Assembly (NCBI GenBank): GCA_015179025.1
Contig: WHUX01000022.1
Location: 248,001-312,000, forward strand
Direction: 5' to 3'
DNA: 64,000 bases
Origin: Terfezia claveryi
Lineage: Eukaryota > Ascomycota > Pezizomycetes > Pezizales > Pezizaceae
Shown here: positions 1,201 to 59,213 of the stretch, piece by piece
How positions within the stretch are numbered: the first letter of the stretch is position 1
Layout: each line of letters opens with the position of its first letter
The notes under the pieces: model-generated
Database searches by the model: none
Told to the model about the DNA's origin: nothing
Seen by the model: the letters and a program-made list of their open reading frames with translations, nothing else
Program-made: the position numbers and the translations under genes

Positions 1201-3390
1201 ATGAGACTTAGTTAGAAATATCTGCTTGCAAAGCGGGTCGGTGCCTTGATAAGAGGCTGGGAAGGGGGGAGTGTTGCAAGTGGTAATCTCAAGGAGCAAG
1301 CGCCTCGCTCCTGCCTAGTGCAAGATCCGTGTGTTTTTCCTGTTTTTTTTTTTGGTTTGGAAGGGTGCCAGGTCCAAGCTGAGGAGTCTTCCGCCGAGGA
1401 AGGGGGGGAGGGATAATCCTGCCGAATCTGAGAGCTATTGGAACGAGAGGCGTCGGCTGAAGCTGACGATGCTATAGTTCTGCAGTCGAACCTGGGGGGG
1501 GGCGGGAGAATGTTGCCGGTGAAGGGGGCCAGGAGAGTTGGCCGGAGCACAGCGAGCAAATGAAAGCGGGAGATGCTGTGGGACGTACTTTGGGAGTGTA
1601 GCGGTAACGAGAGACGATATTAAAAGTCACAGCCTTCGGGTGCAGCAAGAGAGACGTGATTGACCATTAAAACAAGGGAGGGCGGGATAAAAATGGGTCT
1701 GGATGCCCAGGAGACCAGGCAGGTATAGGGAAGGGAGGGCACCGGTATAGGAGCAGCACGTTGACAGTGGACCAGCGAGTGGTCGTTGATGCAACTGCAG
1801 GCAGGCCCAGCGGGGGGATCCCGGACGGACAGGAACAGAAAACCAGCCAATAATTGCAATCTCCAGGCCTTGGCGGAGAGGGTTCTGCGGCAGTTCAGGC
1901 AGTTCAGCGGCTGCTCTATCAGGGCCAGATACCTAGGTAATCTAAATATCTAGCAGGAACACACGATGAGCAGCTGCTCTCGCCGAGGGCGAGGGCGTGT
2001 ACATCTTCCAGGTAGGTAGGGCGGTGGTAGGGTGGAAGGGTGGTATTGTGGGCATAGGTATCCCCTTCCCCCGAGCACCTCTCGATCTGCACGCAGCCAA
2101 ACGAATCAGACACACGGAACACGACGGATCAAGCGAAGAACCGAACAGCTGGAAGTACGGGTACGCAAAAAAACACAAAAGAAAAAGCAAGCAAAGGGAT
2201 AAATATAAGTACGCACGTGGAGGCAGAAAACTTCCGAGTCCCATCCTCGGTAGCTAGGAATGGGGCTACTGTAGAGTACTGTACAGCTAACTACCAGGCC
2301 TTGGTATAAATGGCCTGGCATTTCGACTTCATTTGTGATACCTATTTTCAATCCGACTCAGAATCGGCATTAGCTCCCCTAAATCTAATGTGCTGTTGAC
2401 GCATGTTACGATCATTCGGCAGGGTCAGAGCAAATCTCGACAGGGGGAGAATCACCGTACAAACTGTTATTAGTCCTTCGCCACCGGAAAGTTGTTGGGC
2501 GAAGGTATTTTTGCGATGCTGATTCTTGAACTTTCCTGCAGCTGACCTACGAAGGGTCCATTTACAAACTGTTGTGTGCCCTGCCCTGTAGGTAGGTTGT
2601 AAGCAGGTATGCGCCGACGATGAATGATGTAGGGCACTACCCCTGAAAGTTTGGTAGTTCATGTTGGCACCCGCTCCTAGCCTTCAATCGAAGTGCGCAG
2701 AGAATGAGACTTCCAGGTGCGAGACTAGTAGCTGCACTCCTATGCAAACAAATATGTACGCTGTCTGCGCATTTCCGTTTGGGCTGACTGCAGTGTTGAG
2801 AACTATTTCATATATCCTTATACACTATATCTTTCCAGGGAATCTATATCATGTCTTCCCTTCAAAAGATCACAAGACTAGGTCACGAAAGATGTCACCT
2901 TCCTATCCTCTGGTCATATGTTCGATATGGTGCTAGATGATGAAAGCGCCCTGGGCATTTTCATAACAGCCGCCGTTGTTCGAGTTAAGAATTAGCTCCA
3001 GTTCAATATAACATACATGGCCACAGCACAGGCTCTCAGTTACTTACATTCGAATCTAACCCCTCCAACACGGCCAGCATAATCAAGGGAACCCAGACCT
3101 AAGTCATGATATATCACCAGGATACCCACCATTCCATGAAATCACATACAGTAACGTACGATAAAATCCTTGAGTCAATTTCTTTCTGTAGAGGAGGGAT
3201 ATATCTTACGCACCAAGTGTTGGGGTCGAGAGAAGGATGCAAGACAGCAAATGGAACAACTAGCAAGTTGCAAGGTGGCAGAGTAGACGAGCAATAGTGG
3301 CAGAAATGGAAGAGAAGTCCAATTAAGTTTGTGCCTACTTGGGATCAAGATCTCTGGATCATCGGCTCCCAACCAGAATAGGTAGAGACT

Positions 3391-3413
3391 TGCAACCAGA
3401 CTAGTACCGTACA
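3391..3413 (-). repeat. Micro-insertion (23 bp) with 8-bp flanking duplication
   Basis: The insert contains the minus-strand motif CTAGTCTGGTTGCA. It is flanked by the direct repeat TAGAGACT at 3383-3390 and 3414-3421, as expected of a target-site duplication. Confidence 0.7.
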
Positions 3414-3488
3414 TAGAGACTGTCGGATCAGTAGAGAAGCTAGTGGGAGACGTGCTAACTTCAATTTCTATCTTTCAGATCATCAGAT

Positions 3489-3529
3489 AGTGTTGCCAAC
3501 CAGACTAAGATAGTGTGCCAACCAGACTA
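3489..3529 (-). repeat. Compound micro-insertion with two motif copies
   Basis: Two tandem copies of the motif (minus orientation) lie between perfect 10-bp direct repeats ATCATCAGAT at 3479-3488 and 3530-3539. Within this, the first copy is itself flanked by AGATAGTGT at 3485-3493 and 3508-3516. This suggests a second insertion beside or into the first. Confidence 0.7.
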
Positions 3530-4198
3530 ATCATCAGATCTCGCCCACACTCCCGGACCAGACTAGCTCCCAGTCCACATCCCAAAATGGGATAGCAGGC
3601 AGAACTCTTTGGCGGTACCTAGCTCAACATCGTTATGAATACACAACTTGTCTTCACAAGGAAAAAACTTTTGATATCCGCCCTCAGTACCGTCTTGCAA
3701 TTGGTTGCTTAGTACCAGTACTCTCTCTCCTTAGAGTACCTAGGCTTGAGCACACAAAAGACTAAAGATCCAGCCTAATGGAACGATTCTCAGAGCTTCC
3801 TTTCGGGCTTCAAATACCCTGTACAATCTCCCAGGCCCAATTACTCCCAAGGCAGTCTTAGCAGACATTAATGCCTGCTTAGGTGGAGCGTTCTACGTGG
3901 TATGGCATTGCTGTATTTGCAGCTTGAAGAACAGAATTCATTGGTCGACAATTAGCTGGCTGTAAGCTGCTACCGCAGTGGGCATCTTCATGAAATTAAC
4001 GGCATTTCGAGTACAAATTGAATCACAGGTACTTACTCAGATAAGAGATTTTCTTACAGCTAGATGGACATGTTAAAGTACGCTATGTTTGGGCTGTGGT
4101 CCTAAAGCTGATTTGGCTCACTTAGCAAAAAAAAAAGGACTGTTTACCCTGAAATGATATAAAGAGATCTGGTTGGGTGTGACCTAAAGTGCTGCGGC

Positions 4199-4221
4199 GT
4201 GCCAACCAGACTACCTATGTA
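4199..4221 (-). repeat. Micro-insertion (23 bp) with 9-bp flanking duplication
   Basis: GTGCCAACCAGACTA plus 8 bp, flanked by perfect 9-bp direct repeats TGCTGCGGC at 4190-4198 and 4222-4230. Confidence 0.75.
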
Positions 4222-4470
4222 TGCTGCGGCGATAAAGTCATTATCCGATTTAGACATTACGTCACCGACGATCTGCGTAGCAGCTCTAGAACCATTTCTT
4301 GCTCATGCAATCGCTATGTTTAGGGCCAGAACCCTAGAGTTATGCTGGAGATATAACACATGGGCTTCCATGCATGATTTTGTTGTGCATCAAAGAGATG
4401 AAAAGCCGGTGTGGCGTACTCTTTAACTTTGCATTGGCCGTGGCTTGTTTGTTAATGTTATGTACAGAGT

Positions 4471-4495
4471 CGAGAGGCTTGTGCCAACCAGACAA
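4471..4495 (-). repeat. Motif copy without clear duplication
   Basis: A 25-bp copy in minus orientation (CGAGAGGCTTGTGCCAACC, then AGACAA). It shares the CGAGAGG outer part with the copies near 39020 and 59125. The flanks share only GTACAG, so the target-site duplication is absent or eroded. Confidence 0.5.
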
Positions 4496-5100
4496 TACGG
4501 TAGTACAGTAGTTCAAGAAGTCCTTGTCGTGACGCCAAGTGTGGCGGTACCACAACTCAGAGCAATAGGAAAAAGCCCCGGAACTTGTTACTTCACAGAG
4601 AATTAAGGAATCATGTACTGTAGTGCAGTATATAGATGGGGTCTGTTACTTCTCTTGCTTCAGAAGCAAATCCACATGTGTAGGTGAACGTCGCTCAAGC
4701 CTAACCAACCTACTTCCAAATGGTGCCAATAATAAAATTACTGAAACTATTGAGAGAAAGCTGAACTGGTAGGAAAATAGTGGCATTTTACAACGCGGGC
4801 CGGTTTGGGTTGGCAATGATGCTTTCATCCCAAATGACCCCTGCGTGCTGTGGCGGTAAGTACCGTACTTGCCATTCGCATCTTGCTGGTGTTTGATACA
4901 TGTCGCATGCCTTGGAATTTAGGTTTATAAACAGGACAAGTCCTTATAAACCGAAAACCACCAGCCTTGCCTTGCATCATTCTCGCTCTCTAGAGCTGTA
5001 GGTTGAGGCGATAAAATCACAGCACGCCTAATAGACATCAGTACCAGTACGTTTGGGACCGGGGGCTCTCCACAACTTCCCCCCCATGCAAGTCGATTGA

Positions 5101-8100
5101 ATGAGCACACACTCTCCAGTCAGCGCGCGAGAAGCGGCTGGTAGCCGGCTTTCGACACATCCTCAAAGCCCGGTGGGGTTCCTGGATCCGAATTCCTACA
5201 CGGCACATAGATTGGTGAGCAAAGATTACCTATAAAGGAGCCGTCCTAGTGGAGCTTCAAACTAACCGTGAACCTGATTATAAGCATCATGCAAAACCAG
5301 CCCATTTACATTTGACTTCGCGGAGAATGTAATTGAGATCTCAGCCACCCGTGCAAGATTCAGTCGTGCTGACATGCAGCGAGCAGATTCATCGGCCCGG
5401 TTCCGAAGGGGTGGCTCAAGAATCATCGTGGGGAATGGTACAAGCAACATTTGCATGTAAACTACTCCCGGAGGAACCCTACGTTCAGTGCAGATGAGAA
5501 TGTCGTTGGTCAAAGGAAATTGACGAATCTGGGGCTTCCTGAGGGGCATCCGCCACATGTGAGGAATAATGGGGACTTGATAGACATGACGGAAGCAATC
5601 CCAGATGATGGCGAACCTGGACCTACGACAAGATCAATACCGGAGACCGATGAGGAAGACAGAGGCAGAGAGGGACAGGGTATGGGTGGGGAATCATATC
5701 AGTCAATAGGAACCACCACACATCCACCCATGGACATTGCTCAGTCATCAAAAGGTCGACCAGCATATTCAGCATCACCAACACCAGGATTTGAGCGGGG
5801 GGAATCCTGGCAAACAGCCTCCGAGTCGTTTGAAGACCGAAGCCCTCCAGAAAGTGGCCCGTCCAATTGGCGGAACAAAGAGCCATTGACTGCACTACCT
5901 CCAGAGCCGGAAAACAGCCAATTCCATTTTGATGATGCTGGCGTGGGTCCAGCAGAACGTTCGCCGTTCCAGTACCCAACCTATTTTGATATGATTACGG
6001 AGGAGCCTGCACCGGTAGTGAGTGGGAGCGAATTTGGAGGTAGTTCTGCGGCACCACATTCCTTCGAGGCCACCAATTCTCTCGCATCCCTACTAATTCA
6101 TGATGATGAAGTCCGGAGAAAGAAGGCTAAAAGCCCACCGCCCAAAACTCGGTCCTCTCGTACGCTGCTCAGAACACCATCATTCCTGTCACCGGCCAAG
6201 CATAGATCAAGGGCTCAATCGCAGACACCAGATACTGATAAAGGACCCAAAGTATCTAGCAATAATGACCGGGTACACGGAGGAATGGTCCGCTTCAACA
6301 CAGCCGTTGATATGCATGAGCGGGATAAGCACCTACAGCTGAAATTAGCTGAGCTAAGCCGTAGAAGGACATTACGCCAACTTGGCCGCCATTTTCGACA
6401 CGGGCGAAGGGACGGTGAAATCATAAAAATGGAAAATATGCTAATTCGTGTAGAGTGTGTCAAGTCCACACTGCCAGTTGACTATGATGAACATGAAAGC
6501 ATCAAATTCAATACCAAAACCTTGGAGAGATGGCGAGAGTTTATTGTTGTCTGTCGAGAAGGCTCCGGCGATGATCCCATGTATATCCAGCTTTATAAGA
6601 GTCGAACCGTGCCAGCCATTGATCGCAAACATGTGTCTAGTCACTCAACTCTCAATATTCCACTTACTCCCCGCTCGACTCATGTGAACCTCTACTCTTC
6701 TCTTGACAAGTCTCTGGTTGTTTGGCATCCGAGAAAACAATATACCTTGATATACATACTTAGACCACGTTGCCCGTCGTCGTCGGTGGAGTGGTATACC
6801 TTCCTTCGCAAGGCACTGGGATGGACAAGACCGGAGGCATTGCATATTGTGGTCCCGGCTATAGACGTTACCCTGACAATTGAGAATGCGTTTGATAAGA
6901 TCGAGCGGAGGATTGCAGAATCAGATGGCAATGAACAAGATGGCGCATTAATCAAGGAAGAAAAAGCTATAGCGGGGGATCTCATCAACAAGTCTATGGA
7001 TATGTTGAGGAAATGTCACCTGTGGGATGATTTGTTGGATAAATGGCTTCGTGAAGAGCGTATTGGTCTTGCCTGGAGGAAATACGACCGATTGGAATGG
7101 ATACATGGAGTACGTGGAGATAAATTCCTCATTGTCCCTGTTTTATTGTTTACGCTTTTACAGATAAACGAGCAAAGGATGTATGGTACAATTGGGATGC
7201 AAAGGGTGAGAATGACACCTGATAAGTGTATATTATAGAAACTAATCTTATCACAGACTCATGTCCTCGAGCTTCGCCCCAAGATCCACTACCCAACCGA
7301 GATTGTGATACCAAGTGGGGGAAAGATGGTTGAACCGGCGCCAGGTGCGTGAGCCACGTTGCAGAGACGTCGGCTACAGGGACTAATAAATTGATAGTGG
7401 AAGGGTTCTTGGTTCGTTTAAGTCGTGGCGCAGGCCAGCACCGGCAATACAAGAACCTCTACTTTGCCAAGAGATATTATTGGAGCGTCCACGATAACCT
7501 CCTCTGCTTCTGTAGACCTGCAAGGGCTTTACCACCGCCTCCCCCCAAGCTACCCGTCCACGAGGGAGTCGTGCCACCGACAAGCCAAATTATTGACAAA
7601 ATTCCCGTTATATATGCTGTTGCGCCGTACCAGCTGGACGACAAGTCCAATATCGAGTGGCTCAACAGCGGGAATACTGAATTTCTAGAGAGGCATGATT
7701 TGAATGCATATCATGAGGCGGAACGAAAAGTCAACACTCTTCTCAGGGCTGAGGGGTTCATCGACCTTACAAAGGTTCAGCGGGTTGAGCTCATCCGGAA
7801 AGACACAGCTGATGAGGAAATTTCAATAAACCCAGTTGCAGAAGCCACCGGAGACTCCCCCGTCACAAGCCCAGACCCAACCTGGCAAGATACAGCTCCC
7901 ACCACCGACGACTCCATCTTCCATGAAAAAGTCTTCCGCCTCATCCTCGCCAACGGGCTTGACGTCAAGTTCCAAACTCACGACAAGCAAACCCGTGACG
8001 AATGGGTCACCCGTCTCCGAGACCTCGTAGTGTACTGGAAATCCCGGGACTCCTCAGACATGACCCTCGTGCGTCGCACGCGCAACGAAAACCTCAAAGA

Positions 8101-16803: not shown

Positions 16804-19546
<2,743 letters not shown>

Positions 19547-19724
19547 GCTGGGAGAGTGGATGTGTGATGTATGTGGGATGGAGGCCTGAGTAAATTACTA
19601 GTTGTTTTCATGAGAATTGAAATGGAAATAATGAGTTAGATTAGATACCTTGTTATATTAGTTTTTTTTTTTTTTTTTTGTGCAAGATACGGAGTAAAGT
19701 AAGATCGGACTACATTAGTTTGCC

Positions 19725-19755
19725 TAGTCTGGTTGGCACAAGCCCCTCGAAAGAG
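19725..19755 (+). repeat. Micro-insertion (~31 bp) with 8-bp duplication
   Basis: TAGTCTGGTTGGCACAAGCC followed by CCTCGAAAGAG. It is flanked by AGTTTGCC at 19717-19724 and 19756-19763. Confidence 0.7.
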
Positions 19756-20506
19756 AGTTTGCCCAGACTCCAGAGGGAAAGGTAGGGGAATTACCCTGAA
19801 CTTCAAGTTGCAGAAATGTAAATTTCTTTTAGAAGGGATGGGGGATGAAATGAAGGTGGGAAGTATAGTCTGGTTGTCAGCCTGGAAGGGGAAAGTGATA
19901 GTATACTGGTATAAGCAGAGATTCCCAATGGGGAAAGTGATGCTTCAGTATTCAGCGTGATTCATTCAGAAGTATTGGTAAGATTGTAAAGGATACAGCG
20001 ATTTATAACGTTACTAATCGAAAACTTTCGAATTCCTTATATCTTGACAGTTTTGACATAGCTTTAAAATAATTTACCAGAGCTTTGTACACTGAAAAAT
20101 TGAAGTTATGAATGGTTAAGATACTGCTCTCACCAAGCACTTATAGTCCTCTATATACGGGCGTAGTACGGCCCCAGCTTGAATGTAAGCAGCGCGGTTA
20201 GGTAGCGTAAATCAAGGAAATTTAGTTAATTCTCAAATTTGCTCATTTAAGCAGTGAGTGGCTCCATTTGATTTGATAGCATACCGTTATGCTGTATTGT
20301 AGGGTGCTTCTCCAGAAGCTGTTTTAGCATGAATATTGATGCTCGATTAAAAGGCCTCGTCGTGCCCGCGTTGATATTCGCCCTATAAGGGGTTTTAAGA
20401 GGGGTATTGGGTACTGGGTGGTTTGGCGTAATCATCACGAAATATGGTTGGAGACGCTACTACGGGGATATTATAGGTGGAGGCTAAAGTACGCTACTGG
20501 GTTGTT

Positions 20507-20521
20507 TAGTCTGGTTGGCAC
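20507..20521 (+). repeat. Micro-insertion (15 bp), short duplication
   Basis: Exact TAGTCTGGTTGGCAC. Taking its first T as shared, GTTGTTT flanks both sides (20501-20507 and 20522-20528). Confidence 0.6.
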
Positions 20522-22656
20522 GTTGTTTGAGGGTAAACCGTCCCAACGTAGCTAGGCAAAATCTTCACTTGACATAAGTCTCATGTCCTTACTCATAAGT
20601 TGGGGGTCACAAAATTCAAAAAAGTAGATCAAGGAAATGAGAGCTCTTACTTTTTTGCTTCCTCTATTGAGGAGCAGGGCCGTATTTTCACGATATTATA
20701 TATCTTAGCTGGTAACACTTTACAGTATAGTGCTTCTATTCCTGGAAATTGCTCTGAGGGAGATAGTGAGGGCTGATACTTTGCTTGTGTTTTTGTAGAG
20801 GGGTTTTAGGTTTCTCAGCTCATAGCTGAATAAACTTAACTCGGCTAATTGATAAGCAACCCACGATCACTGTCCTCCGTAACCACCAACATGGTCGAAC
20901 GGTAAGATCAGTTGCATGTGAAGCCTCCCACACCGAAAGGTTGCGAGACGAAGTCTTTTGTCTGGTGCTCGACTTTTTTTTTTCCCCATCCCCATACAGA
21001 CAGACAGGCAGGCAGTAGTAGCAACCAATTATCACCATCATGCTCTTCTTGGAGGCATGCGGCAGCATCTCACGGGGGAATGCCTATCAAACTAGCTGAA
21101 GGCGGTGCTTCATACTTGGGTCTTTCATACATTAAGTATCAAAGTGCCTGTCTACTGCCACTAGGCCCTACATATATGTTGCTGGATCCCTTATACCTCC
21201 TTAGCTCCGGCTACAGAGACCTCTGCCGCGAATGGCACCGGTTAGAATTAGTTTTAGCCTCATGTGACTATGCAATGTGGAATAATTACTAGCTGGCTGA
21301 TTTCCTAGTTTCTAATCATCAATTCTACCGTATTTCCAAATGTACTGAAATAACTATTTCTCCTAGGAAGTTATAGTGCCCGTGATGAATCCTCTACAGC
21401 GGGATTACGGTGCCGTAGCAAGGACATATTAAACCTGCTAATACTGGGCTGGAGCTGGAGAATATTCATTTTGCAAAGCCAGAAGTTAGATAGGTAATTT
21501 CGAGAATGGGATATACTGTAATGTATTCCCCGTTACCCTGAATCCTATTCTACGAACTCTCCGTTTTCTATGGTACAACTGTAATTGGAGACCCTGATAG
21601 TCTTTTGTACTTTTAAACTTTAACCCCACTATACCTTGATTAAGGGTTGTATTTGTTCTCTACGGCTTTGGTCGAGCTGCTAGCTGACCTATCTAACTAT
21701 CATCCCAATGTATATTCTGTTGATTTCTTTCGTTGGATGCGAGTTTGTATGACTACATCTATAAATATTTGGCAATGATTTGAGCGCAGGGCTTCAATCC
21801 ATACTTCTATACTATGTATCTCTATTCTTCCTATCAAGTGTTGGTCCCGGAACCAGCTTACTATAATGTGTCGCCAGTTCTTCATCGAAGGCGTTGGGCT
21901 CCACTGTTTGAGTTCGGCTTGTCTGCTCTATTGTATGCCCTTTTGCCACCTAGTGGTATATACGTTGTTGGGCCGTTGCGTTATTCAGGGCCATTTTGGA
22001 ATGGCCTCGGCAGGTCCGGAATTGCCAGGCATGCAACGCTGTCCACTGAGCTTGAAGGTTTGTGCCCGTTCATATCAAGTTTCTCCACAAGCGTTGAGTC
22101 CGTTGTTAACTCTGTTCGTATTATTTTCAGCAGAAGGTATTATAACTATCAACCAAATGCTCTCAGTCTCGGAGTTACCCTGAACTCTTCAACCTCCAGT
22201 TTTTAAGAAACTATAATAGATCACGGTCAGTCAACCTCTAGATCCTGTGTAGAGAAAAGTGCGGGAAGGGAATCGGTCTTGAAAACCTTTGTCAACCAGT
22301 ACAGTACAGTTACATGTCAGCAAACAGCATAATGTTATAAGAAAGAACGAGGGTAGACGTAAAGTTGCCTATACATAGTTTTTTTTCCCTACCTTATTTG
22401 CGCAAGAAAAACCGAAAGAGAAAGTAATTAAGAAAATAAAGAAAAAAAAAATGCAACGCAATATTGTCCTAGAGCATGTTTCAATGTAAAATTCTAATTC
22501 CCTGGCCCAAATCAGTTCATAGTTCAGTCTGTGAGACACTTCGAGGCTGTATCAGCCAAATAGTCAATAGAAACAAAAATGAATTGCGGTAGGGGAATTG
22601 AAGTATACCTTTCTCAGGGGGTAACACCCATTCCGGCCTTGTTAATACAATATTGG

Positions 22657-22671
22657 TAGTCTGGTTGGCAC
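22657..22671 (+). repeat. Micro-insertion (exactly 15 bp) with perfect 9-bp duplication
   Basis: TAGTCTGGTTGGCAC sits between perfect copies of CAATATTGG at 22648-22656 and 22672-22680. This is the cleanest example of the family. Confidence 0.85.
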
Positions 22672-24480
22672 CAATATTGGGATGTTTGAGATTGAGCTTA
22701 ACATCTCCTGGCTTGAAATCAACCCCTTCACCTGTCCCAAGTTGGTGTTATATACCTATAGTGGCATTGACACCGAAGATTGGGTAAATCCCCCAGAGGG
22801 AGTTGGCCGTGGGGAGCCACCTGAAGATAATGGGAAGCTGGCTCCCGATCGAGGCTTATGATTTCGACAGAGGAAGAAAGAGGGTAGATTTGCACAGTGA
22901 CCGGTAATGGTTTTCATTGTGATGGCTTATCATGTCTCTCTTACCTTGTTTGGAATTTCGCATTGGTTCGAGTTGTGTGAGTTGATAGTTCCGTGGGCGT
23001 ACCGAGTCTATTAAGATGAGGGAAGGGGGCCGTCTCAAAGCCAAAGGCTCCATAGACTTCAAAAGAAAAAAAAAGAACAAAGATCTCCATCGTGAGGTGC
23101 TGGATTGTCCTCGTGCTTTCTTCCTTCATCGCTTAGAGCATCATTGCTTCCCAATTCTCTCGATGTGAGGTCGGGGTTGAACCGTGGTTGTCCCCATCTT
23201 CCGAGCTAGCCGGGGATCGTTACACTTCTTTGCTTTCTCGGTGGCACGGTGCGGAAAAGCATAACCCTTCCTTCCCTTGGTCCCTTCTTGAGATTTGACT
23301 AAGTATCCCGTGCATTGGCAGCAAGCTCCCCCACTCTCCACCTCGTCCGTGAACTACAGTGAGGGTTTAACTACAGCGAGGGTTAATCCTCCTTCATCCA
23401 TCTTTTTCCCCTAATAGCCGCTTCATGCACGCCTTCTCCCGACTCATCCTATTCCATAATGCCTTGAGGGAGAAGTACCCTTTGTCAACCAGGGCATACA
23501 ACTATTAGCCTAATGTGACTGAGTATACTGGCCAGAGTACAGAAATTAGCTTCGTATCTGTCCCAAGCCTTCTACAGTCGGCTGCCCTCCTGCCTCCCGT
23601 CTCTTATTCACTTGGCTAATACCAGTTCAGAGCATATATAACGTCATTATTCAGCTGATAATACTGGCCAATCTACTGCATGCCACCCTTGCCCGAATCA
23701 TTGTCGATCCGCTCTCTTGCAGGACATCGTATCAGTTCTAGGTTGTTGATGGGAAGCATGCGGCCTAGCTCAACATGCAGCTGAATAAACCGTGGACACT
23801 GATAATCAGATCGTATTGCAAAAGTAAGTCAAGAATGCAGTCAGATACCTCTGAGTATGTATAGACAGAAAAAACGTGTTTGGAAGTAGGGAATGTGGCC
23901 CAATCTAAGACGTATTGCACAGATTGAAGTTATACTTCTCTACAAACGATATCAATATCCGGCAGGAAGTTTGGGCTCGCTTCAGAGCACTTATTAGTGC
24001 ATTCAATTCCCCATGATGTGGTAGGGACGGTGCTCTGCAATGATCACTTTAGCCATTGTGAGCCCGGAAAAGTATCTCTTTCACGAAGGACAGATACTTC
24101 AATATACGATTTCAATCAGAAATGGAGTATACAACTGTATACAACTGCCATAGCTTTTTCTATCTCTCGCATTTTTCGATGGCTCTATTAGAGAGAGAGC
24201 AGGCATCATCAATGATGTACGAGTTAACGCACCTTGAGATGATACACTTCTGAAGACTGAACACCATGCATACAAGTATGAGGATATTTGGAGATTAAAT
24301 AACACAAGAGCTTTAAACAATGCCCAATCCTACGTTTTTTTTATGCTAAGATCTGTACCTTGCATCAGCAACTTACGACTACAGCATCTTACATGTGGGT
24401 GGTGGATGTTGGACATTTTAGAATATTTTGGTTTATTCGGTAGGTAATTTGGTTTCTTTCTGGTGTTTGATACACACCAA

Positions 24481-26410: not shown

Positions 26411-29400
26411 TCAGTCCTTCCTATGCTTCACAAAATAATACGTCAACAGATTCTGAATCCCCGATTCCAACCCCACAAGCACCTCTTCAAACAACCTTGC
26501 CTCATCCCCAACCTTCTTATTCAGCGCCACACACAAATCCACACAATTCCTCCTAACCTCCGAATCCTGCGCCCCCATCCCCTTAACCGCCACTTTTCCC
26601 AACCTGCCCATCTCTTGCTCCAACTTCTCAAGCTTACTCGCCTTGACCAACTTCCCCAGAAGAGCCAGCCCCATACACCACCCCTGGATAGGGGGAGTGT
26701 AGCTCGCCGGCTTATCCGCTGGCTGGATAGTGTTCAGGACAGCGTCGATGCTGATTGTAGTGTCGACCGAAGCCAGAAACTCGTCCGAGATATCCTCAAT
26801 GCCGGTAGTGACGTGAGATTGCGTTGGGTATTTCCCGCGGAGATCAATAAGGGTAGTAAGGATAGCAGCTTCATGGGCCGACAAGTAGGGACCACAACGG
26901 GTAAGCTGCTTGAGGACCAACAATCCTTGGACCCTCAGGTCTGCAGACTTCTCAGGGTCCAACTACAAAAAATTAGCGCATCTCTCTTTCACACAGAACC
27001 AATGGTGATTCTACTCACATCATCATCCCTCAAAAACTCCAACAGGATCTCCATCAACTCATCAAACATCCTCCCCCCTTCCCAAATATCTGCCGTCGCC
27101 TCCTCCCCATTATTCTCCCTCAATACCCTCACAGGATGTTCCCTCGCAATGTTAATCAACTTCCTGAAACTCTGTGTATCCATATCCCTCGCCCTCACTT
27201 TTTCAATCAACGTCTGTAAAAGCCTTGCCGTATGTTCCGGCGCCTTTGGCAGATTCGAGTTACTAATTTGCTTCTTTACCCTTGCCCTATACCATTCCGT
27301 ATTCCGTTGCTGCTCACCCCCACTCGAGTCATGTACAACCGAAGCCTCCGCAAACGTAAGCTTCGTTGCAGCCCCATTCCTCGTCTGTAACTGCTCCAGA
27401 GACTTCTCCGGAGTTCTCTGCGCCTCCTTATTCTCCTTATCTTCCGACTCAGACTTTGGCCTAACCCTTGGGGGTGTTTGTGGTGGCGCAGGCATAGCTC
27501 CCGATGCAGATCGACTAACATCTCTCTTAATTTCAGTCGGTGAGAACTCCCTCTTCCGCGACCTTGGAGACATTGGCACTGGGCTGATATGCCTAAATCT
27601 CTGTAGCGAGGAAGGTGATATCACAGGGACCTCACCCAGCACCTCCTGGACATGCGCAACCTTCTCTTCCATTGGGCGAAACTCCTCCTCTTCAAGCGGC
27701 TGACCCCAGGTCCTCTTCAGCTCCGATACTATCGCCCTCTCAAACGTACCCAGAATCTTATCAAAGTTCGGCTGATCAATCTTCCTCAAACTTTTTAATA
27801 ACAACGCCAGTGGCTGATAGTTCGGTGCCTTCGTCTGGCTCAACATGGCCAAGAGCCGACTAACATAGGTCTTGTAGTTCCCCACATCCTGTATAAACTC
27901 ATTCTCATTTCCATCAACCACCAAATCAACCAATTCCTTGAGCCAAATCAGACTTCCATGGATCACCTTCTTTTTCTGACTATTAGTGTAAGGTGTAGTT
28001 GGAATTAACTTCCTAGGCACAGTCCCAAACGCTCCCATGCTGGTCAGGATCCTAAACAGAAGATCCGTTGCTTCTGAAAGCGTCAGAAGGCTCTTGAGCA
28101 CTGGCATGGTGGACTGCATCGCCGACTGCGCATGGCCTTCATCATCACCCTCCGCAAGCAGCAGAACCTTAGGCACAACCATATCCATCGGGACAAGCTT
28201 ATACAGCCCCTCAAGCACCTCTGGGGCCAAGATATGCTCAACAACCTCCGACTGGGGATCATTGACCAGTTTTTGTAGAATTGGGGCAAGCTCTGACGCA
28301 GGTGGCAAAGTAGGAACCTTCGATCCATCGTAATTTGGCGGGGTTCTTTTCGCAATTAAACAAGCAACAGTGACAACACCCTCAGCTCTCACCCTCCAAT
28401 CCGGATGGTTCAGTTGATCCACAAGCGACATTTTCTTGGTGCTCAGTTGCGAGCCTTGCTGCTTGAGTGGTGTCTTCGCCATCCTGAGTGACTGTGGCGG
28501 AGAACCTGGCGGCTGCGGTGAACGCCGCGAGAAGTGCACCGAGGTCTCTTTGGTCGAGGAGTGTGTTGAGACGGGACTAACAGCACGGTTGGCAGCCGCT
28601 CGCTCACCACTTCCGATGTTAGCAGGTGTGGATCTGACCGCCGCTCCCTCAGGCGCAGCCCTAATCTTCGGCCGAGTTGGACGTACCGGAGCGGACGATA
28701 ATCCCGCTGGATGAGTCGACGCCGGAGCTGGTGGGGCTTCAATTTGCGCAGAAAGCATATCTGGTCGTTGGAGCTTAGCCATCTGAGCCTGTTGCCTCTT
28801 CTGTGCAAGGATAGCCTCCTTAATGGAAGGTCGCGTAACTGGGGCTGTAGTGGTGCGAGTAAGGGTAGGAGCTCGCGAGTTACTCCCTTTCACCGAAGCA
28901 TTGGGATTCTCCTTCTCGAGCAATTTCTTCATGGTGTTATCAAGTCCATCCATAATCACATCGGCTCTATCTGGCCAGACCACTGCAAACTTCCAAAAAG
29001 TGCCTCGCATCCCCTCTCTTACACCGGGATTTGCATCGGCCAATCCCCTCTTGATACACTTCTCGATGACGTCTAGGCCACCTGTGTGCTCGAGATAACC
29101 CTTGTGGTCTGCATGCGCCTCAATCAGTAGCCTCAACCATCCTGTTGCAAAAGATCGCGGCTGCACATTCTTGTCCTGAACCGCACCCCATACGTGATTG
29201 AGAATTTTCGGCTGATATGAGATATTCGCAAGCAAAATTGCCGTAGTAACTTGCCCCATCTGAGCTGTAATCTTCTTTGTGTTTGCACACAACTTAATCA
29301 GATTCATCAACAGCAGTTCCGCCATAGGGTCCATTCCTGGTCCACAAATAATCGCCAGATCCTTGACAAGCTGACAGCCATTAGTAGACAGTGTTGTTCT

Positions 29401-30609
29401 TAAAGAGTTGACAGACTTCAGAATTCCATCCGAGTGAGTTTTAAGACCAGCCAGAAAGGTCTGCTGATAATCCTTGTATGCATTTCCTCGAGCCAATCGT
29501 CGGATCCTTGTACAGCTCTTTTCTCTAGCAAGCCAATTCTGCTCCGACTCCCTGCCATCAAAGCACGCAACCATACCTGCAAAGATCTCCTCCAATTCCC
29601 GATTCGTATTGACGTATTCCGGATCCAGCACCTCAAGCTCAGTGCCTGGAAGGGTCTCAAGAAACCTCGATGCCGGGTTCCCGCCTGCTACACTCTTCGC
29701 CTTATTTGGCCCTGTATTCCCTGATGGTCCTTCCCCCTCCCCAGCTGCGCCACTAGCCATTGCCTCCGCCTCTGCAGCCCCACCGGGTATACCAAGCTGG
29801 CTGACTATATATGTAGCGATTGCCTTCCTCACCCCATTCCTCGCCAATTCCTTCTTCAAATCCGCCTTTGCGTGATCCGGTGCATTCTTAAACAGCTCCA
29901 CCACTGCTTCCTTCGCATTATCCCTAACCGCGGCATCCGCATCCTCAAGCATTTTCATCAACAGCGGAGTATAACTCCTGAACGAAAATCCTGGAACTTG
30001 ACTATATACCCGCATCAACCAATTCACACTGTGCTCTCGCGTCCTCGGACTCTTGCTTTGCATTCCATGCTCCTTGACCGCTTTCTCCGTTTCCGCTGGT
30101 AAGTGTTTGTACATGTCGAGAACACAACTCAGGGCCTGCGCATTTATTCGAACTTTCGAGTCGCCTAGTTTGTCTACAAATACGGGCAGGAGGGAGGCGA
30201 ATTGTGCGCGGACATACTTCGGGTCTTGGAGGCCTAATCGTTTGATGAGGTGGCCGATACAGGAGAAGGTATGTTGGAAGAGGAGGACATTTGTCGATGC
30301 GAGGCCAATTCGGAGAGCTTCACATAGGGGAGCTATTCCTTCGTTCTGTGTTGATTGCAAAGAAGTTAAAAAGGATCATTCATTTCCCCTTCCTCACGGA
30401 AAACCTACCTGCACAAGACTTTGTTTTATCAGACCCTTAATTTTCTGTATCTCTGTGGTCTTGACATCAGGGTCCTCTATATCCATTCGTTCCAAACAAT
30501 CAGCTTCTGGACTCGATCACACGTTCAGACTCGGGAAGGGTAGGCACGCACTATTGCTGTGCATCAGGTTCAGTAAATCCTGTGCCTGTTCAAGCGTCAC
30601 CATCGACAT
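26411..30609 (-). CDS. stu1: Microtubule plus-end CLASP family protein Stu1
   Basis: Four exons: 30609-30552, 30506-30409, 30345-27019 and 26962-26411, 1344 residues. The start is MSMVTLEQAQDLLNLM. The N-terminal TOG-type HEAT array (IAPLCEALRIGLAST, PVFVDKLGDSKVRINAQAL, MKMLEDADAAVRDNAKEA) and a second one (AEEIFAGMVACFDGRESEQNW region) are followed by a Ser/Pro/Arg-rich basic linker that binds the microtubule lattice. A third helical repeat region (MSLVDQLNHPDWRVRAEGVV) and a C-terminal helical domain complete it. CLASPs stabilise plus ends and attach kinetochores; in yeasts Stu1 is essential for the spindle. The first intron is only 45 nt. The long open frame on the opposite strand (26423-27703) is a shadow. 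Confidence 0.92.
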
Positions 30610-38830: not shown

Positions 38831-38902
38831 CAGTCTGGTTGGCACAACACCTAGTGGACAACCTGGTATGGTAATAGTCTGGTTCTGGTTGGCACAACAC
38901 CC
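38831..38902 (+). repeat. Two adjacent motif copies
   Basis: CAGTCTGGTTGGCACAACACC (split here at position 38831) and, about 45 bp on, TAGTCTGGTTCTGGTTGGCA with CAACACC. In the second, CTGGTT is duplicated. The shared GGCACAACACC shows a common source. No flanking duplication is obvious. Confidence 0.5.
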
Positions 38903-39003
38903 GGGCTGCGAGGGGTAGACTATGTGTCTAACTAGATTGGAGCTATGAACTTCCAGGATAAAAGATAACCAGGATAAAGATTGAGGATAAAGATCTACCT
39001 AAC

Positions 39004-39030
39004 TAGTCTTGGTTGCACAACCTCTCGTAG
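39004..39030 (+). repeat. Micro-insertion (27 bp) with perfect 9-bp duplication
   Basis: TAGTCTTGGTTGCACAACCT then CTCGTAG, flanked by perfect CTACCTAAC at 38995-39003 and 39031-39039. It is the same length and ends as the copy at 59121-59147 on the other strand. Confidence 0.8.
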
Positions 39031-39370
39031 CTACCTAACCAATTTCATATGGTTACTTACTGTCATATTTACAAATACATCACCTCCACATCAAACGGCG
39101 TTATCAGATGTTAAGTACCACAAGTCCCCTTGCATAAGCCCAGCTATTTGGTTTCTAAAGCAGCAACCATCAGGTACTAGCATCTAGATAACCACATCAT
39201 AGTCAGGCTCCGCCGATAAGAACCAATACGCGAGGTAGCAATTGAAGCCCCTTCCTTTGAACTAGGTGAAATGCAAGAGACTACAAACAACCAAATACTT
39301 AAGCACAGCATGTACCACCAGCTAGATACCTCGAATTCAAAAAGGCATTCAGCAGCAAACGTAGCTTAAG

Positions 39371-45907: not shown

Positions 45908-46249
45908 AGTGTACTTCCCTCAGGATCGTATATGCCGTGTGGATTGTAGGCCGTAGCTCCTCAGCATTTCAGTTGCCCAGTGGCGCCATAAGCACAGCCA
46001 CACGAAGAACTTCCGACGTGCGGCTCTACACTCATCATGACGCTAGACGCTGAACGCCACCGACGCAGTTACTTACCTTGAGGATCCCAACCTATTAGAG
46101 CTTCCCATACCCGTGCAACGAAACGAGCCGCGAAGTTACCAGCATCACAAGATACAGCCTGTCCTGTCTGCTGCATATCGTATTTGTGCAAGTAGGAAGA
46201 AAGATAGACAGTTGTGGGATAAGACATCTATTCGGACTGAGGAAGAGAG

Positions 46250-53591: not shown

Positions 53592-53899
53592 GCAAGTGGG
53601 GGAACGTGATTCACTACCACACTGTTGGATGTATTTGAATTACTCTGCTGCATGGAGTCTTTGTTCCTGTTTGCTTTTGGGGGTGTTTACATTGAATTGA
53701 GATCATTTTGATGCTTATTTTTGGATTTTGGATGAAGATGCCATACCATGTAACTGGGAACTATGTACGGAGGCGCAGAATCTTATTCCCCTTTTTCCTA
53801 TCCGGGAGCTGTATATGCAGGGCAATTCATGCATAATAGTTGGCATATTCATGGGCATTGACGCATATTCAACGGATATGGTCTCCTCAACCACTTCGC
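53592..53899. other. Intergenic 3' flank
   Basis: 3' flank of the acetyltransferase gene; no gene seen. Confidence 0.4.
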
Positions 53900-54365
53900 C
53901 AGTTGTCTTACTTTCTCTGTCCCACTCAACTTCTCAATTTACTTTGAGGCTCACCTGATCTCAATATGATTGAGATTTTCTGGGCATGTCTCAAACGCAT
54001 AATCACGAAAAAGGTAAATACACCCCTTTCCAGCACCCCAATCCCCCGAACACCCCAATTCTCAGGCAAACATATTGCTAATAACCGAGATTGGGACCTT
54101 CACTTCCCGCACGGCTGCTGAGCAAGCATGGAAGAATGCATGGTGTGACCTTGAGCAATGGAGGCCTCCATTCAGCATTGCATTGAACATATCCAAGAGG
54201 TCATCAGAGAATCGAGGGTGGTTATGAATATTCTGAAGGGACATCCTATGAAAAGATATAAAAGAGCACGAGCGGCAGTTCCGCATTTCAGGAGACTTAA
54301 CAAGATCCACAAGAATGCAAGGGGAATTGACGTTTGTTCTGCACCTCCGTTGCTACATATATAAT
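53900..54365 (+). pseudogene. Tc1/mariner-type transposase remnant
   Basis: A short frame from about 53940 reads SPDLNMIEIFWACLKRIITK, the terminal DDE signature region (SPDLNPIE...W..LK) of Tc1/mariner transposases. Within 150 bp, and in shifted frames, come AAEQAWKNAWCDLEQ and IQHCIEHIQEVI, as in the C-terminal end of such transposases. Several frame shifts and no upstream catalytic part are seen, so it is a dead fragment. Confidence 0.6.
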
Positions 54366-55482
54366 ATTTTTCTTATCGCCTTTCTATTGGTGTAGATAGC
54401 TATAGTTTAAGCTTACTTAAGATAGATACTGCTAAGATACATATATAGTAGATTTTACTTATTTCATCTCCAGTCTTACCTTTTTTATGCTTGGTTTTAC
54501 TGCGAGCTCAGTAGTCGGTGCTAGAAATTCGTCCACTCAGGGTAATGCTATAATGCCGTTGAAAACTCTTCATGGACCGGATTCCGCAACAGTAATATAT
54601 TTTAATATTATCGCACATATGATATTCATGGTGATATAACTTATTTTTACTCGCATGCAGGAAAGAGAAACTGTGGAAACAGGAATGTATCTTTTCATGC
54701 AACGGGAAAGATGTTCATTCGATGTACTTAACATGAAGAAGAGAGAGCTACTTCTCTCATAAAGACCGAGATCGCCAAGACAATACTAACGTCTAGTGCC
54801 ATCCTCCACAGAAACAAGAAACCTATAGTTTAGTTTAGTTAGTTAACCCTATTATATAATATGAGAAGGTTAAACCATTGCAGTGAAAAGTATGAAGGTT
54901 TGAAATTTGAATTGAACAAGTAGAGACGGAAGGTGTTTGAGGAGCTTTTGTTAATGTATAAAATAATGGACTTGGTTTTTTTCACTCAATCTTGCCTTCA
55001 TGGGTGCACATATTCCAGAACGGCCCTGAACAATTCCGCAACGGGACCATATCCATATAACTAACCAAGTATTTTATTCTACCAAAACCACCCATCTAGA
55101 CCTCCAGGGTTGTACTGTCCATGTTACCTGTACCTTCAAACAAACTACCTCTATCCCTATATACACCCACATAATGCCAAATACCTTTTTTTTTTTTTTT
55201 TCTATTACCGCTTCAGCAGTGCTTTAGGGTTCGAATTTATATAGCATATTTCTTGGTTTATTATGTATATCATATAATGCCTTTAGATATTCCGATAAAA
55301 GCATACAATAGGTACTGTACACACACAAAATTATCCAACCTCTTAACAACACTAACCATTTGGCCATTCGGGCCAAATCAAATTTATAAACAAGTTATCA
55401 CCACGCACACCAAAACGCGATCTCTTCAAGATAAAATAACTTGACTAAAAAAAAGAAAAGGTAGGCCAAAAATTTTTTTATT
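54366..55482. other. AT-rich intergenic region
   Basis: No gene seen. It includes a tandem TTAGTTTAGTTAGTTAA tract (about 54830), a T17-type run near 55190 and the tRNA 5'-end fragment at 55355-55373. Confidence 0.5.
55355..55373 (-). repeat. 19-nt copy of the tRNA-Thr 5' end
   Basis: GCCCGAATGGCCAAATGGT on the minus strand is identical to the first 19 nt of the tRNA gene 110 bp to the right, then diverges (TA for AA). Confidence 0.7.
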
Positions 55483-55563
55483 TGCCCAAACTCGGAATCG
55501 AACCAAGAATCTTTTCATATCAGATTGTACGAGTGAAACGCCTTACCATTTGGCCATTCGGGC
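55483..55563 (-). tRNA. trnT-CGT: tRNA-Thr (anticodon CGT) with a 9-nt intron
   Basis: On the minus strand the acceptor arm GCCCGAA pairs with TTTGGGC, with discriminator A at 55483. The D arm is GCC-AAATGGTAA-GGC, the anticodon stem TTTCA/TGAAA, the loop C-T-CGT-A followed by a 9-nt insertion (CAATCTGAT) right after position 37, where nuclear tRNA introns sit, and the T arm CTTGG-TTCGATT-CCGAG. Anticodon CGT reads ACG (Thr). The intron-containing form agrees with a nuclear gene, removed by the tRNA endonuclease. Confidence 0.9.
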
Positions 55564-56206
55564 TGTTTGGTTGATGCCAGTGCAAAGGAATATTTGTGCC
55601 ATATGTGCATTTCTGACACCATCATAACCACGCTACTACTCCCGCAACATTGCTCTGTATGCGATGCTGTTGTTCATCATATATCACTACCCTATCACGA
55701 TCATTCTAGTTGTTCCTTTTTTCCCCTGGCAGTTCATACGGGAAAATCCCAGAACTAATATTAATATATCATTAACCAACATCTTTTGATCTGCAAGTAG
55801 GAGTACAATACAGAAAGCCATGGTGTACTTCGGCCGCTGTCCCTCAGACCCACTGGCAGAGTTTTTGCCCCTTCCATATTAAACCTCTCCACCACCAAAC
55901 TCCCTCAAAAAGCAAGTGTAGATGCTAACGGTTATGTGCAAATGACGCTGCATGTGTATATATGTGGAGAGATATTAAGCACAAGGATATTAACTTATCG
56001 ACTATACACAATGATACGTGTTCAACTAATTACTCTATTCGAGCCATATATCCCAGTATTAATGGAGCACCAGGAGAGATAGCCAAACACGCACGATAGA
56101 GTATGGAAAAAAGCAATGTAAATATTAACCTGAAATTGACCTTTTGGCCTTTCGCCAGCCTTTTGTCAGCCAAGGAGAGAGAGAAAACAGTGTATTTCTA
56201 TTCAAT
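55564..56206. other. Intergenic region between the tRNA and erg5
   Basis: No further gene seen. Confidence 0.45.
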
Positions 56207-58129
56207 TTAGTCTAGTATAGGGAGCCGCTCTTTGAAAGTGAGGAAGCAGTCGTCCTAAGGAAAAATTTTAGTTAGTTCATTTTGTGTGGATAGTTGGCGA
56301 GCACTTACCATAGGGAAAATCGTCGCAAACACCTTAATCTTTTCGGATGTGGGTGTAACGTGATGTTCCCATTCCAGCATTAACGACGCCAAAGAAATCA
56401 TGGCCATGAAGTTGTAAGTCGCATACTAAAAGCAGACAGCCCCACGGATCAGCAACCACAATGTGAGCGATGTACGTAAGCACAAACACGGAGCGGTAAA
56501 ATGCATGAATCTCTTACCGTTTGTCCCAAACAGTAGTGTGGTCCTGTTCCAAATACCAACCAGTTCTTAACCGCTGCCTCTGCCTCCCCGCCTTCGAGCC
56601 ATCGGTCAGGGTTGAAAGTTTCTGGGTCGACATACACTTCTGGGTCATGGAGAGCTGGGTAAAGAGTGGGCACAATCATGGAACCTATTAAGAGTGTGTT
56701 AGAAGCTCATCTAGCAGAAGCAAGTCTCCTTGGCCCACCTTTTGGAACAATATATCCCTCTGCGACCGGAAAACTTTTCTTGACCTCATATGGAACCATA
56801 GTGACGGGTGGGCGGTATCTCAAACATTCCTTCACTACCGCACGGGTATAAACCATTGAATCCAACATGTCGATATCGGCCGGTTTGTATGGGTCCCCAC
56901 CCCTCACACGAAGAGCTTCCTCTCGAACTTTCTCAAGGCAATCGGGCCTGTCGGCCATGATCTGGAAAAGCCAAGTGGTGGCACTAGAAGAAGCATCCTG
57001 GGAGGCAAACAAGAAGGTGAATATAGTTTGCGCTATCTCCCAGTTAGTGAACATACGGATGCTGGCTGGAGCCTTTTCGCCTGGAGCCAGGGTTTCTCCT
57101 CGAGCAAGCCTCTCCTCATGTGCCTTGTACTCAAACATGGACTTGACCCAGTAGTCTAGCAAACAGTGAGGAACCCCACCAGCGGTAATATGGTCCTTGG
57201 ACTTCTGGGCGCATTCAGAGAACTCTTCAAGGACCATATCCGCACATTTCTTTCCATACCAAGTCCTGGTGTATGGGATGATAATGGGGAAGTTGACTAA
57301 GTCCAAGGCAGCGGTAACTTTATAATAGTCATCGGAAATCTTCTTGACCTTCTCATCCGAGCTGTAATTTCCAACAAATGTCCTGCATGAAACAGCACAG
57401 TTGATCTCACGGAACTCTGGCATAAATTTGACGTTGGGCGTCTTCTTTGAAATCTGAATCCATCTCTTGAAGTACCTCTTGTGCATGTCCTCCTGACCGG
57501 GTAGGTACTCAGAGAGGGCCTTACGAGTGAAAAGTCCGTTCAACCCCTTTCGGTAGTCAACATGTGCCTTTCCATCCAAGAAAACCCAGTTTGTAGGCCG
57601 CAGAATCTTTTTCGCAATGTCGACGACGCATGGCTTAACGTACATAGGCGAGTTGAGCACTTTTCGTGCAAGATCTCGGGTAGAGGCAATGACAACAAAT
57701 CTATGAATCGGGAAAGCTGTCAGTTGCAATAATTTGAAACTAAAAAATACAGCCCATTTACTGACTTGTGGAAAACAGATACGCAACTCAATGGACCACT
57801 CGCCCATTTGGCTGCATATTCTTCGAATTTAGGATCGATTGACTCGAGGAAAGGGCCCATGAAAGGCAATTTGAATGCAGGCCCAACAATGTTCCCCCAT
57901 TTGTTCCATTGGTACTTTGCTTCAAGAACCCATATAAGTCAGCGCATAAAATTATGATAGCTTACTAGAGCATCATCTCACCTTGATCATACGTGACGCA
58001 AAGAATAAACAGGGTAACCGCAAGGCTCCAGTACGACACACCTCCGAACAGCTGTTTAACCATATTCCCACCCAACATCTCGGGGGAGCTATCCCCAGGC
58101 ACCGCGGGTGGGGAGGATTGAGATGCCAT
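56207..58129 (-). CDS. erg5: C-22 sterol desaturase, cytochrome P450 61
   Basis: Six exons: 58129-57982, 57919-57766, 57700-56739, 56684-56518, 56425-56309, 56254-56207; 531 residues. The N-terminal membrane anchor is [15 protein letters not shown] (about 35-49). CYP61 signatures include [54 protein letters not shown] and [15 protein letters not shown]. The oxygen-binding I-helix [15 protein letters not shown] (about 331), the ExxR helix [11 protein letters not shown] (about 391), the PERF-like region FNPDRW and the haem loop [11 protein letters not shown] (Cys about 472) are all present. It introduces the C22-C23 double bond in ergosterol synthesis in the endoplasmic reticulum. The introns are 54-92 nt. 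No azole-type change can be judged here. Confidence 0.96.
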
Positions 58130-59075
58130 CCGTCTCTCAGATAATCGTCTCGTGCTCTTTCAGTTTCTTCGATCCACCAGCTGGGGAATCAACCCGAAGA
58201 GAATTGTCGGAGCGCTGAAGTATTTGAGCGAAAAATAGGGAAAACTAAGTTTTATCGAGCTGTCAGATCAACATTGCCGAGGAAAACAGGGACACAATAT
58301 TTATCCTCCCCTGAGCGCCAGGGAATCCAAATAAAAAGAGTTGGAGTTAGTCTGACAAATAGGCGTGATAAAATCAAGCTTGAAGGAGCTTAAGTCTGCA
58401 GCTGGTACAACTTGGATCTAGGTTGAACGATAAAAGCGACTTATATATATATGATATGCCGTATATAAGTGCTGTTCTGTTCTGTCGCCCAGGGCTGCGG
58501 CTGCGGGAAATAACGGATGGGGGCCATTTTCATTACCTACATAAGGCAGCGATCACCTCTGCATGGCAACATACAACATTACTGTACTGTTACGTTCATG
58601 CCCAACTGCTCAACAACCTGCCCTTCGGACCTCCGCACTGCCGAAGCTATTCCGAAAAAAGGGGTGCCACAGGGCCAGCAAGGGTTACTTAGGCCAAACG
58701 ATTATCGATACATATATATGATATCTACAGATCGACCCCGACTCATTACCCCCAGGTCAAAAAAAAAACGACAAGGAATCTGACACCGGCCTAGGTATAC
58801 TCAGCCTACCTACATTTCAGTTGTTGAGCTCAGATGTTTGTTGACTTTTGAACCAGTACATGTACCTACCAGCCCACCTACTTAGGTACCGATAGGTAGC
58901 TCCTTTCAAGATTTCCTGTAGAAAAAAGATTTTGAATATCTAGAACTTGAGGAATGCAGTAAGTACGTAGCTTAAAACAGCAAGAGAAAAGCTAAACCTA
59001 GAACGTTAAGCCTAACCGGGCACTAGTCCGGTTGGGTGAAGTGCAAGACTAGTCATATCGTAACCTCCAATACAT
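58130..59075. other. Intergenic region upstream of erg5
   Basis: Promoter side of erg5. No gene seen. It contains GTACCTACCTA-like tracts (58795-58900) and a degenerate TAGTCCGGTTGGGTG near 59022. Confidence 0.5.
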
Positions 59076-59089
59076 TAGTCTGGTTGCAA
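59076..59089 (+). repeat. Micro-insertion (14 bp) with perfect 9-bp duplication
   Basis: TAGTCTGGTTGCAA flanked by perfect CCAATACAT at 59067-59075 and 59090-59098. Confidence 0.85.
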
Positions 59090-59120
59090 CCAATACATTC
59101 TAGTAAGAAATGTGGATACC

Positions 59121-59147
59121 CTACGAGAGGCTGTGCCAACCAGACTA
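59121..59147 (-). repeat. Motif copy, 27 bp
   Basis: Minus-strand TAGTCTGGTTGGCACAGCCT then CTCGTAG; same ends as the 39004 insertion. No clear flanking duplication. Confidence 0.6.
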
Positions 59148-59195
59148 GGTACAATCTGTCGCCGCCTGTGTCCTATTAGGCAAGCTCCCCTGAAT

Positions 59196-59205
59196 TAGTC
59201 TGGTT
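59196..59205 (+). repeat. Micro-insertion (10 bp) with 8-bp duplication
   Basis: TAGTCTGGTT between perfect CCCTGAAT copies at 59188-59195 and 59206-59213. It is the shortest example. Confidence 0.75.
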
Positions 59206-59213
59206 CCCTGAAT

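Follow-up and report, generated by a model that had tools for sequence, protein, structure and literature searches.

Short TAGTCT-ended insertions flanked by 9-bp target duplications in the genome of Terfezia claveryi

Micro-insertions in the window and across the genome

We analyzed a stretch of 64,000 nucleotides from Terfezia claveryi (contig WHUX01000022.1 of assembly GCA_015179025.1, positions 248,001 to 312,000), here called the window, in which copies of one short sequence starting with TAGTCT lie between direct repeats. A first-pass annotation had reported eight such micro-insertions, and all eight were found with the direct repeats that it described (Table 1). Some details of the inserts changed on closer reading, as those at 4199 and 3391 hold 8 and 10 extra bases, respectively, between TAGTC and one of the repeats, and the supposed 41-bp insert at 3489 consists of two nested insertions instead of one. 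That none lies inside a gene is consistent with the open reading frames (ORFs) of at least 200 amino acids in the window, introns and short exons being outside that comparison. Taken together, flanking repeats far above control levels, a maximum of repeat length at 9 bp and the presence of empty sites leave us almost certain that the inserts are genuine and that their targets were duplicated.

The assembly (72.56 Mb, 794 contigs) was searched for a 15-mer of this sequence, and its copies were analyzed in a 264-kb sample comprising the window and 20 fetched 10-kb stretches with listed exact copies; since the stretches were picked around such copies, copy density in this sample is biased. Genome-wide, the exact 15-mer is present in 2885 copies, compared to 0 for a reversed control, and its first 11 bases (TAGTCTGGTTG) occur 5960 times (control: 57). 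A second family, TAGTCTCGATCAGACCCTC, accounts for 272 copies (control: 0), while its start, TAGTCTCGATC, was found 741 times (control: 41). TAGTCT is common to these sister families. Within the window, 18 occurrences of the 15-mer at up to three mismatches compare with 1.81 expected, a number reached in 0/100 shuffles. A palindrome at L020:7640-7690 (L numbers denote fetched loci) combines TAGTCT ends with another arm (TAGTCTGGTTCGAGCTTCCC...); it was seen by eye and points to more subfamilies than were counted.

Target duplications

The sample contains 93 copies of the 15-mer with at most two mismatches. Of these, 48/93 are flanked by exact repeats of 7 bp or longer, compared to 23/2000 random positions and 0-1/93 copies with shuffled flanks; in this tabulation against shuffled controls, which the first-pass annotation had proposed and which covers the 264 kb, flanking repeats are far commoner than at random. 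Their length shows a maximum at 9 bp (27 of the 48 sites). Longer repeats were found at ten sites, one of them extending to 50 bp via a tandem duplication, and this number is near the one quarter expected from chance extension. Based on this maximum and the near-chance level of longer repeats, the target stagger is most likely 9 bp. An exact 9-mer adjoins TAG in 37/93 copies (0.85 in shuffles). Among edge-trimmed repeats, 16 have lost bases next to the variable end and two next to TAG (1.1 and 1.85 after shuffling), a loss at the variable side that would be expected if exact joining is confined to the TAG end. Across the 48 sites we observed no clear target preference. At L025:5125-5290, a tandem duplication with a period of 58 bp takes in a micro-insertion.

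A scan for direct repeats of 9-14 bp with gaps of up to 60, which did not start from the 15-mer, yielded 286 pairs in the 264 kb, of which 75 involve TAGTC or GACTA, and TAGTC was the most frequent insert start (45; next 11). Likewise, repeats of 8 bp or longer accompany 73/544 TAGTC occurrences (about 4 expected), versus a mean of 0.67% over 150 random 5-mers, the best of which reached 3.4%. The 286 pairs illustrate how common short direct repeats are, and such repeats could in principle surround a common motif by chance. We consider the probability of this explanation negligible: it is refuted by the random positions, by the shuffled flanks (0-1/93 against 48/93) and by the four empty sites described below, and it leaves 2885 copies against 0 in the control.

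Empty sites

Joined queries were used to search for empty sites, covering 25 of 36 prepared sites in one search and 19 of 43 in another. At L017:8571, a 31-bp insert has AAGGTATTC on both sides, and a related repeat copy at L027:5628-5716 carries a single AAGGTATTC and no insert. The same stretch of this joined query is matched at 35 more genome places, with spans that differ from that of the query by a few bases (query positions are uncertain by up to 12). The copy at L027 belongs to a dispersed repeat, about 88 bp in length and matched at no fewer than 36 places in the genome. For three other cases, a diverged paralogue with one target copy was identified, namely for the 10-bp insert TAGTCTGGTT at L020:7262 (paralogous site L063), the 15-bp insert at L023:5916 (L064, the weakest, in a low-complexity stretch) and the nested 12+15-bp pair at L012:8454-8483 (L065). 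The remaining sites of the 19-site search matched mostly their own places, which in the short class exceed the query by 19-31 bp, as expected. An initial self-comparison restricted to matches of at least 60 bp revealed no recognizable junction-spanning empty site, and at the protein level no clear coding exon in the long ORFs spans an insertion (judged by eye). The earlier interpretation of the flanking repeats as duplicated target is borne out by their length maximum of 9 bp and by these four empty sites with a single copy.

Table 1. Copies of the short sequence and a neighbouring gene in the window
Position	Reported site	Strand	Description
3383..3421	3391	-	23-bp spacer: TGCAACCAGACTA plus 10 more bases, flanked by 8-bp repeats TAGAGACT
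3479..3539	3489	-	41 bp with two copies between 10-bp repeats ATCATCAGAT; inner copy has its own 9-bp repeat (nested)
4190..4230	4199	-	23-bp spacer: exact 15-mer plus 8 more bases, flanked by 9-bp repeats TGCTGCGGC
4481..4495		-	15-mer with 1 mismatch, then AAGCCTCTCG; no clear flanking repeat
19717..19763	19725	+	One-armed 31-bp insert TAGTCTGGTTGGCACAAGCCCCTCGAAAGAG flanked by 8-bp AGTTTGCC
20507..20521		+	Exact 15-mer; short flanking repeat GTTGTT (6 bp, by eye)
22648..22680	22657	+	15-bp insert, CAATATTGG on both sides
26989-30375			CLASP-family protein encoded; 100% identity over 98% of its length to a T. claveryi protein, next hit 93%
38831..38895		+	Two degenerate copies; no clear 9-bp repeat
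38995..39039	39004	+	One-armed 27-bp insert, CTACCTAAC on both sides
59067..59098	59076	+	14-bp insert TAGTCTGGTTGCAA, CCAATACAT on both sides
59133..59147		-	Exact 15-mer, then AGCCTCTCGTAG; no clear flanking repeat
59188..59213	59196	+	10-bp insert TAGTCTGGTT, CCCTGAAT on both sides

Length classes of one-armed inserts

Most inserts are one-armed, with an exact TAGTC end and a variable other end. The lengths of 73 inserts starting with TAGTC and flanked by repeats of 8 bp or longer (two-armed elements being counted on both strands) fall into distinct classes: 35 measure 7-16 bp, five 17-26 bp and 28 measure 27-36 bp, while five are longer. Two of the five inserts of 17-26 bp are one palindrome read on both strands, and another is a composite. 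This sparse interval coincides with the arm ahead of a tip loop (AAGCCYCTCGTAGAGR and variants that differ in stem and loop). Based on folding and inspection by eye, the tip stem starts at position 15 in the second family and at 19-21 in the main family, and the short class measures 14-16 bp in the main family and mostly 10-12 bp in the second. For the latter, 18 sites were fetched, selected for their absence from the listed long form; seven had a repeat of at least 7 bp, with insert lengths of 10, 11, 12, 12, 16, 17 and 26 bp. The two 12-bp sites have common flanks, and two sampled sites add lengths of 11 and 12. The short-class length thus seems to move with the tip, suggesting that copying halts before it; a fixed cutting distance would not give such a family-dependent length. 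The tip hairpin was part of the best fold in four of five one-armed sequences tried.

One fixed end, truncation near a hairpin-like tip, target duplications and base loss at the truncated side could also result from target-primed reverse transcription, in the manner of long interspersed nuclear elements (LINEs), of a small RNA ending in GUGCCAACCAGACUA-3', with 5' truncation of the product. The 5'-truncated insertions of LINEs and short interspersed nuclear elements (SINEs) indeed resemble the inserts in having a fixed end, a truncated end and a target duplication. LINE duplications vary in length, whereas the maximum observed here is sharp and fixed at 9 bp, and the inserts stay below 60 bp and have no A-rich tail. 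Complete palindromes with both ends exact and 9-bp repeats likewise argue against this route, which we regard as improbable.

Palindromic and nested forms

In its complete form the insert is palindromic and about 50 bp long, as in TAGTCTGGTTGGCACAACACCCTACGTAGGGTGTTGTGCCAACCAGACTA flanked by two GTAAGTTCC (L050). Such palindromes, which reach about 51 bp and have TAGTCT at either end, represent a minority: TAGTC is present at both ends in 8/73 rows of the length table (four elements), and the others are one-armed. The first-pass annotation had described the inserts as lacking a second terminal repeat, which does not apply to this minority, since it carries TAGTC at both ends together with the 9-bp duplication. 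At about 10-51 bp, the inserts are, as had been noted, far below the size of ordinary miniature inverted-repeat transposable elements (MITEs).

Across the genome, exact 15-mers face each other at a distance of 0-30 bp at 46 places. Of these, 20 were read, and exact 9-bp repeats adjoin the pair in 10/20 and 8-bp repeats in 2/20 cases. The ten 9-bp places include one composite (L072) and two that represent one locus: L053 (contig C408) and L054 (contig C3) share an identical palindrome and flanks, from which it follows that the assembly may hold some parts twice. L086 and L087 also share flanks. The 46 places comprise 42 distinct sequences, whose shorter arm has 15-25 bases and whose longer arm most often 27-28 (12/42). 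Exact pairs 31-61 bp apart were found at 18 places, several of which hold further copies and appear by eye to be composites. The palindromes fold as one 24-bp hairpin, and a 51-bp example folds clearly better than its shuffled versions (z -14).

It can be asked whether the one-armed inserts are decay products of these palindromes. Whole 50-bp palindromic nano-MITEs would then be inserted via a transposase and lose one arm by hairpin cleavage during replication. The complete palindromes with exact 9-bp duplications (10 of the 20 read) and their 24-bp hairpin fold are in line with such a history. However, the end point of a secondary deletion would not as a rule coincide with the edge of the target copy or fall within 3 bases of it, nor would such deletion be expected to skip 17-26 bp. 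Furthermore, paired 15-mers are found at 46 places compared to 2885 15-mers, a comparison that does not count degenerate second arms. We therefore consider decay rather improbable.

Insertions within insertions were detected at window positions 3489-3529, at L012:8454-8483 and at L026:3867-3911. At L072:12-77, three copies of CTCTATCAC are split by a 15-bp insert and an oppositely oriented 24-bp insert, indicating two uses of a single 9-bp target. In L069, 27-base arms from two different subfamilies are joined, with exact 9-bp repeats outside.

Search for the enzyme and a parent element

A constant stagger suggests that a DDE transposase is at work. Domains of Mutator-like elements (MULEs) were found at 21 genome places. 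The Mutator-like elements L029:103-2738 and L030:541-3158 are both complete, at about 2.6 kb each, and their ends are CGGACTGACTC and not TAGTCT. Their terminal repeats start identically, and they are flanked by exact 9-bp duplications (TTGTTGAGG and TGCTACCTA), a length that is partly by design because exact 9-mers alone were searched. No TAGTCTGGTTGGCAC end was found in the 3.2-kb MULE loci L029-L049, in which most MULE ends other than those of L029 and L030 lie outside the fetched stretch. The Mutator link drawn by the first-pass annotation is thus supported by the duplication length but not by the ends of L029 and L030. Compared with Mutator-like transposons and MITEs in general, the inserts share the 9-bp duplication and, in the two-armed minority alone, the terminal inverted repeats; they differ in their size of 10-51 bp, in being mostly single-ended and in their TAGTCT ends, and ends in common with MULEs were not seen.

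Other candidates were discarded. Four matches of TAGTCTGGTTGG with three mismatches in the Mutator loci L034 and L045 are copies of one internal terminal-repeat sequence and were attributed to chance; in the part fetched, the long terminal repeat arms containing them span 333 and 210 bp. The locus L034 itself is Mutator-like, with a 575-amino-acid open frame and terminal repeats (357-689 and 2947-3279) of at least 333 bp and 99% identity. hAT dimerisation domains are abundant, being scored for 150 of 182 candidates genome-wide. According to PMC12730594, hAT duplications usually measure 8 bp, which does not fit the maximum at 9 bp. For Merlin (IS1595-type transposase), the genome gave 0 matches to PF12762.

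The search for a long TAGTCT-ended element covered the fetched loci and identified neither such ends paired over distances of up to 9 kb by an exact duplication of 7-10 bp nor TAGTCT ends among exact 9-bp duplication pairs up to 8 kb apart. Mutator loci aside, no long stretch downstream of TAGTCT is common to the sampled copies. The full-length elements with these ends whose existence the first-pass annotation had considered did not appear in the 264 kb; an autonomous partner may exist elsewhere in the genome. For the Terfezia MAT locus, the accessible text of PMC13152902 reports no transposable elements in either idiomorph.

An alternative is that the inserts are excision footprints. Here, a TAGTCT-ended cut-and-paste transposon would have inserted with 9-bp duplications and later left. 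Either a staggered cut within its ends or an interruption of gap repair would leave 10-36 bases of one or both ends between the target copies. A model for this is the P element and its 17-base stagger, whose transposase cuts 17 bp inside the end according to PMC7776569, and its footprints likewise show two target copies around terminal-repeat remnants. Footprints would explain why there are two target copies, why the outer end is exact, why bases are missing opposite and why two-armed remnants exist (15+15 at L015:6186), and as one can arise per move they could outnumber the elements. On the other hand, no long element with such ends is present in the 264 kb, the short-class length differs by family, two-armed forms are few (8/73 rows, four elements), and one-armed remnants do not reach unique internal sequence past about 36 bp. 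The P-element duplication is also 8 bp long, in contrast to 9 bp and thousands of mostly one-armed copies here. On balance, an origin as footprints seems less likely than not, but it is a strong rival of the reading preferred below and ranks above decay and reverse transcription.

A possible mechanism of insertion

The reading that we prefer over footprints, over palindrome decay and over reverse transcription of a small RNA is that short hairpin-tipped end fragments are joined at a 9-bp staggered break, followed by copying and end joining; we would give it a probability of about 0.38. A recombinase, most likely a DDE transposase of the Mutator type, would cut the target strands 9 bp apart and link a very short end fragment to the broken target. 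This fragment would consist of the TAGTCT start, a variable arm and a small hairpin-like tip such as CCTCGTAGAGG. The 3' end of the target would then be extended across the 9 bases and onward along the fragment. Copying that stops a few bases short of the tip, as would often be the case, could give rise to the short class, and copying past the tip to the end of the fragment to inserts of 27-36 bp. The other side would be sealed by end joining, often losing 1-3 target bases, whereas fragments joined on both sides would give a two-armed palindrome. In favour of this reading are the 9-bp maximum and the four empty sites, the loss of target bases almost exclusively at the variable end, the length classes and their dependence on the family, the preferred longer arm of 27-28 bases in two-armed forms, the two 27-base arms of L069 and the failure to find a long element with these ends in the 264 kb.

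Several observations weigh against fragment joining. To our knowledge, T. claveryi is not known to contain short end fragments in free form. The 264 kb yielded no transposase with TAGTCT ends, and the assignment of the enzyme class rests on duplication length. Among the 93 copies, 38 have neither a full nor an edge-trimmed repeat, some of these showing one that holds a mismatch inside or additional bases, and 8/20 of the two-armed places read show no, displaced or imperfect repeats. L066, by sequence the clearest chimera of two subfamilies, is without a repeat. The numbers behind the second-family lengths are small and include 16, 17 and 26 bp. Tips fold no better than shuffled sequences (z -0.6 to -1.0), one of the five tried lacks a tip hairpin, and the 10-bp class has no matching hairpin. 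Among the options raised in the first-pass annotation (footprints, single-end insertions or a new nano-element), the choice has been narrowed, with none singled out.

More tentatively, the inserts may represent a new class of nuclear mobile DNA, in which a transposase with a 9-bp stagger inserts bare hairpin-tipped end fragments of 10-50 bases in a kind of natural tagmentation. The mobile unit would be the terminal repeat itself, usually single and present in thousands of copies without a transposon body.

Comparison with known systems and implications

Tagmentation is an in-vitro laboratory reaction in which short bare ends are attached to DNA by a transposase whose stagger is 9 bp, and one-ended transposition, which inserts long DNA, has one exact and one variable end. 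The inserts resemble these processes in the exact and variable ends and in the stagger, although neither process is demonstrated here. The nearest described tiny mobile palindromes, as far as the available sources go, are the GC clusters of yeast mitochondria, which the part of PMC4478555 available describes as palindromic, dispersed and tens of bases long, with putative target duplications, shuffling and merging. In contrast to the present inserts, which lie beside nuclear genes, are mostly one-armed and have 9-bp duplications, GC clusters are mitochondrial, with repeats given there as AG or ACT (PMC4478555). A full-text literature search, judged by title and abstract and with most subscription journals outside its reach, returned no description of such insertions.

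If insertions as small as 10-31 bp spread by the thousands and duplicate 9 bp of target in the way of a transposase, either the transposon body and the second terminal repeat are dispensable or footprints can be unusually large. Insertions this short easily escape repeat annotation. They would supply small indels made up of the insert plus 9 bp, for example of 19, 24 or 40 bp, as well as dispersed binding sites.

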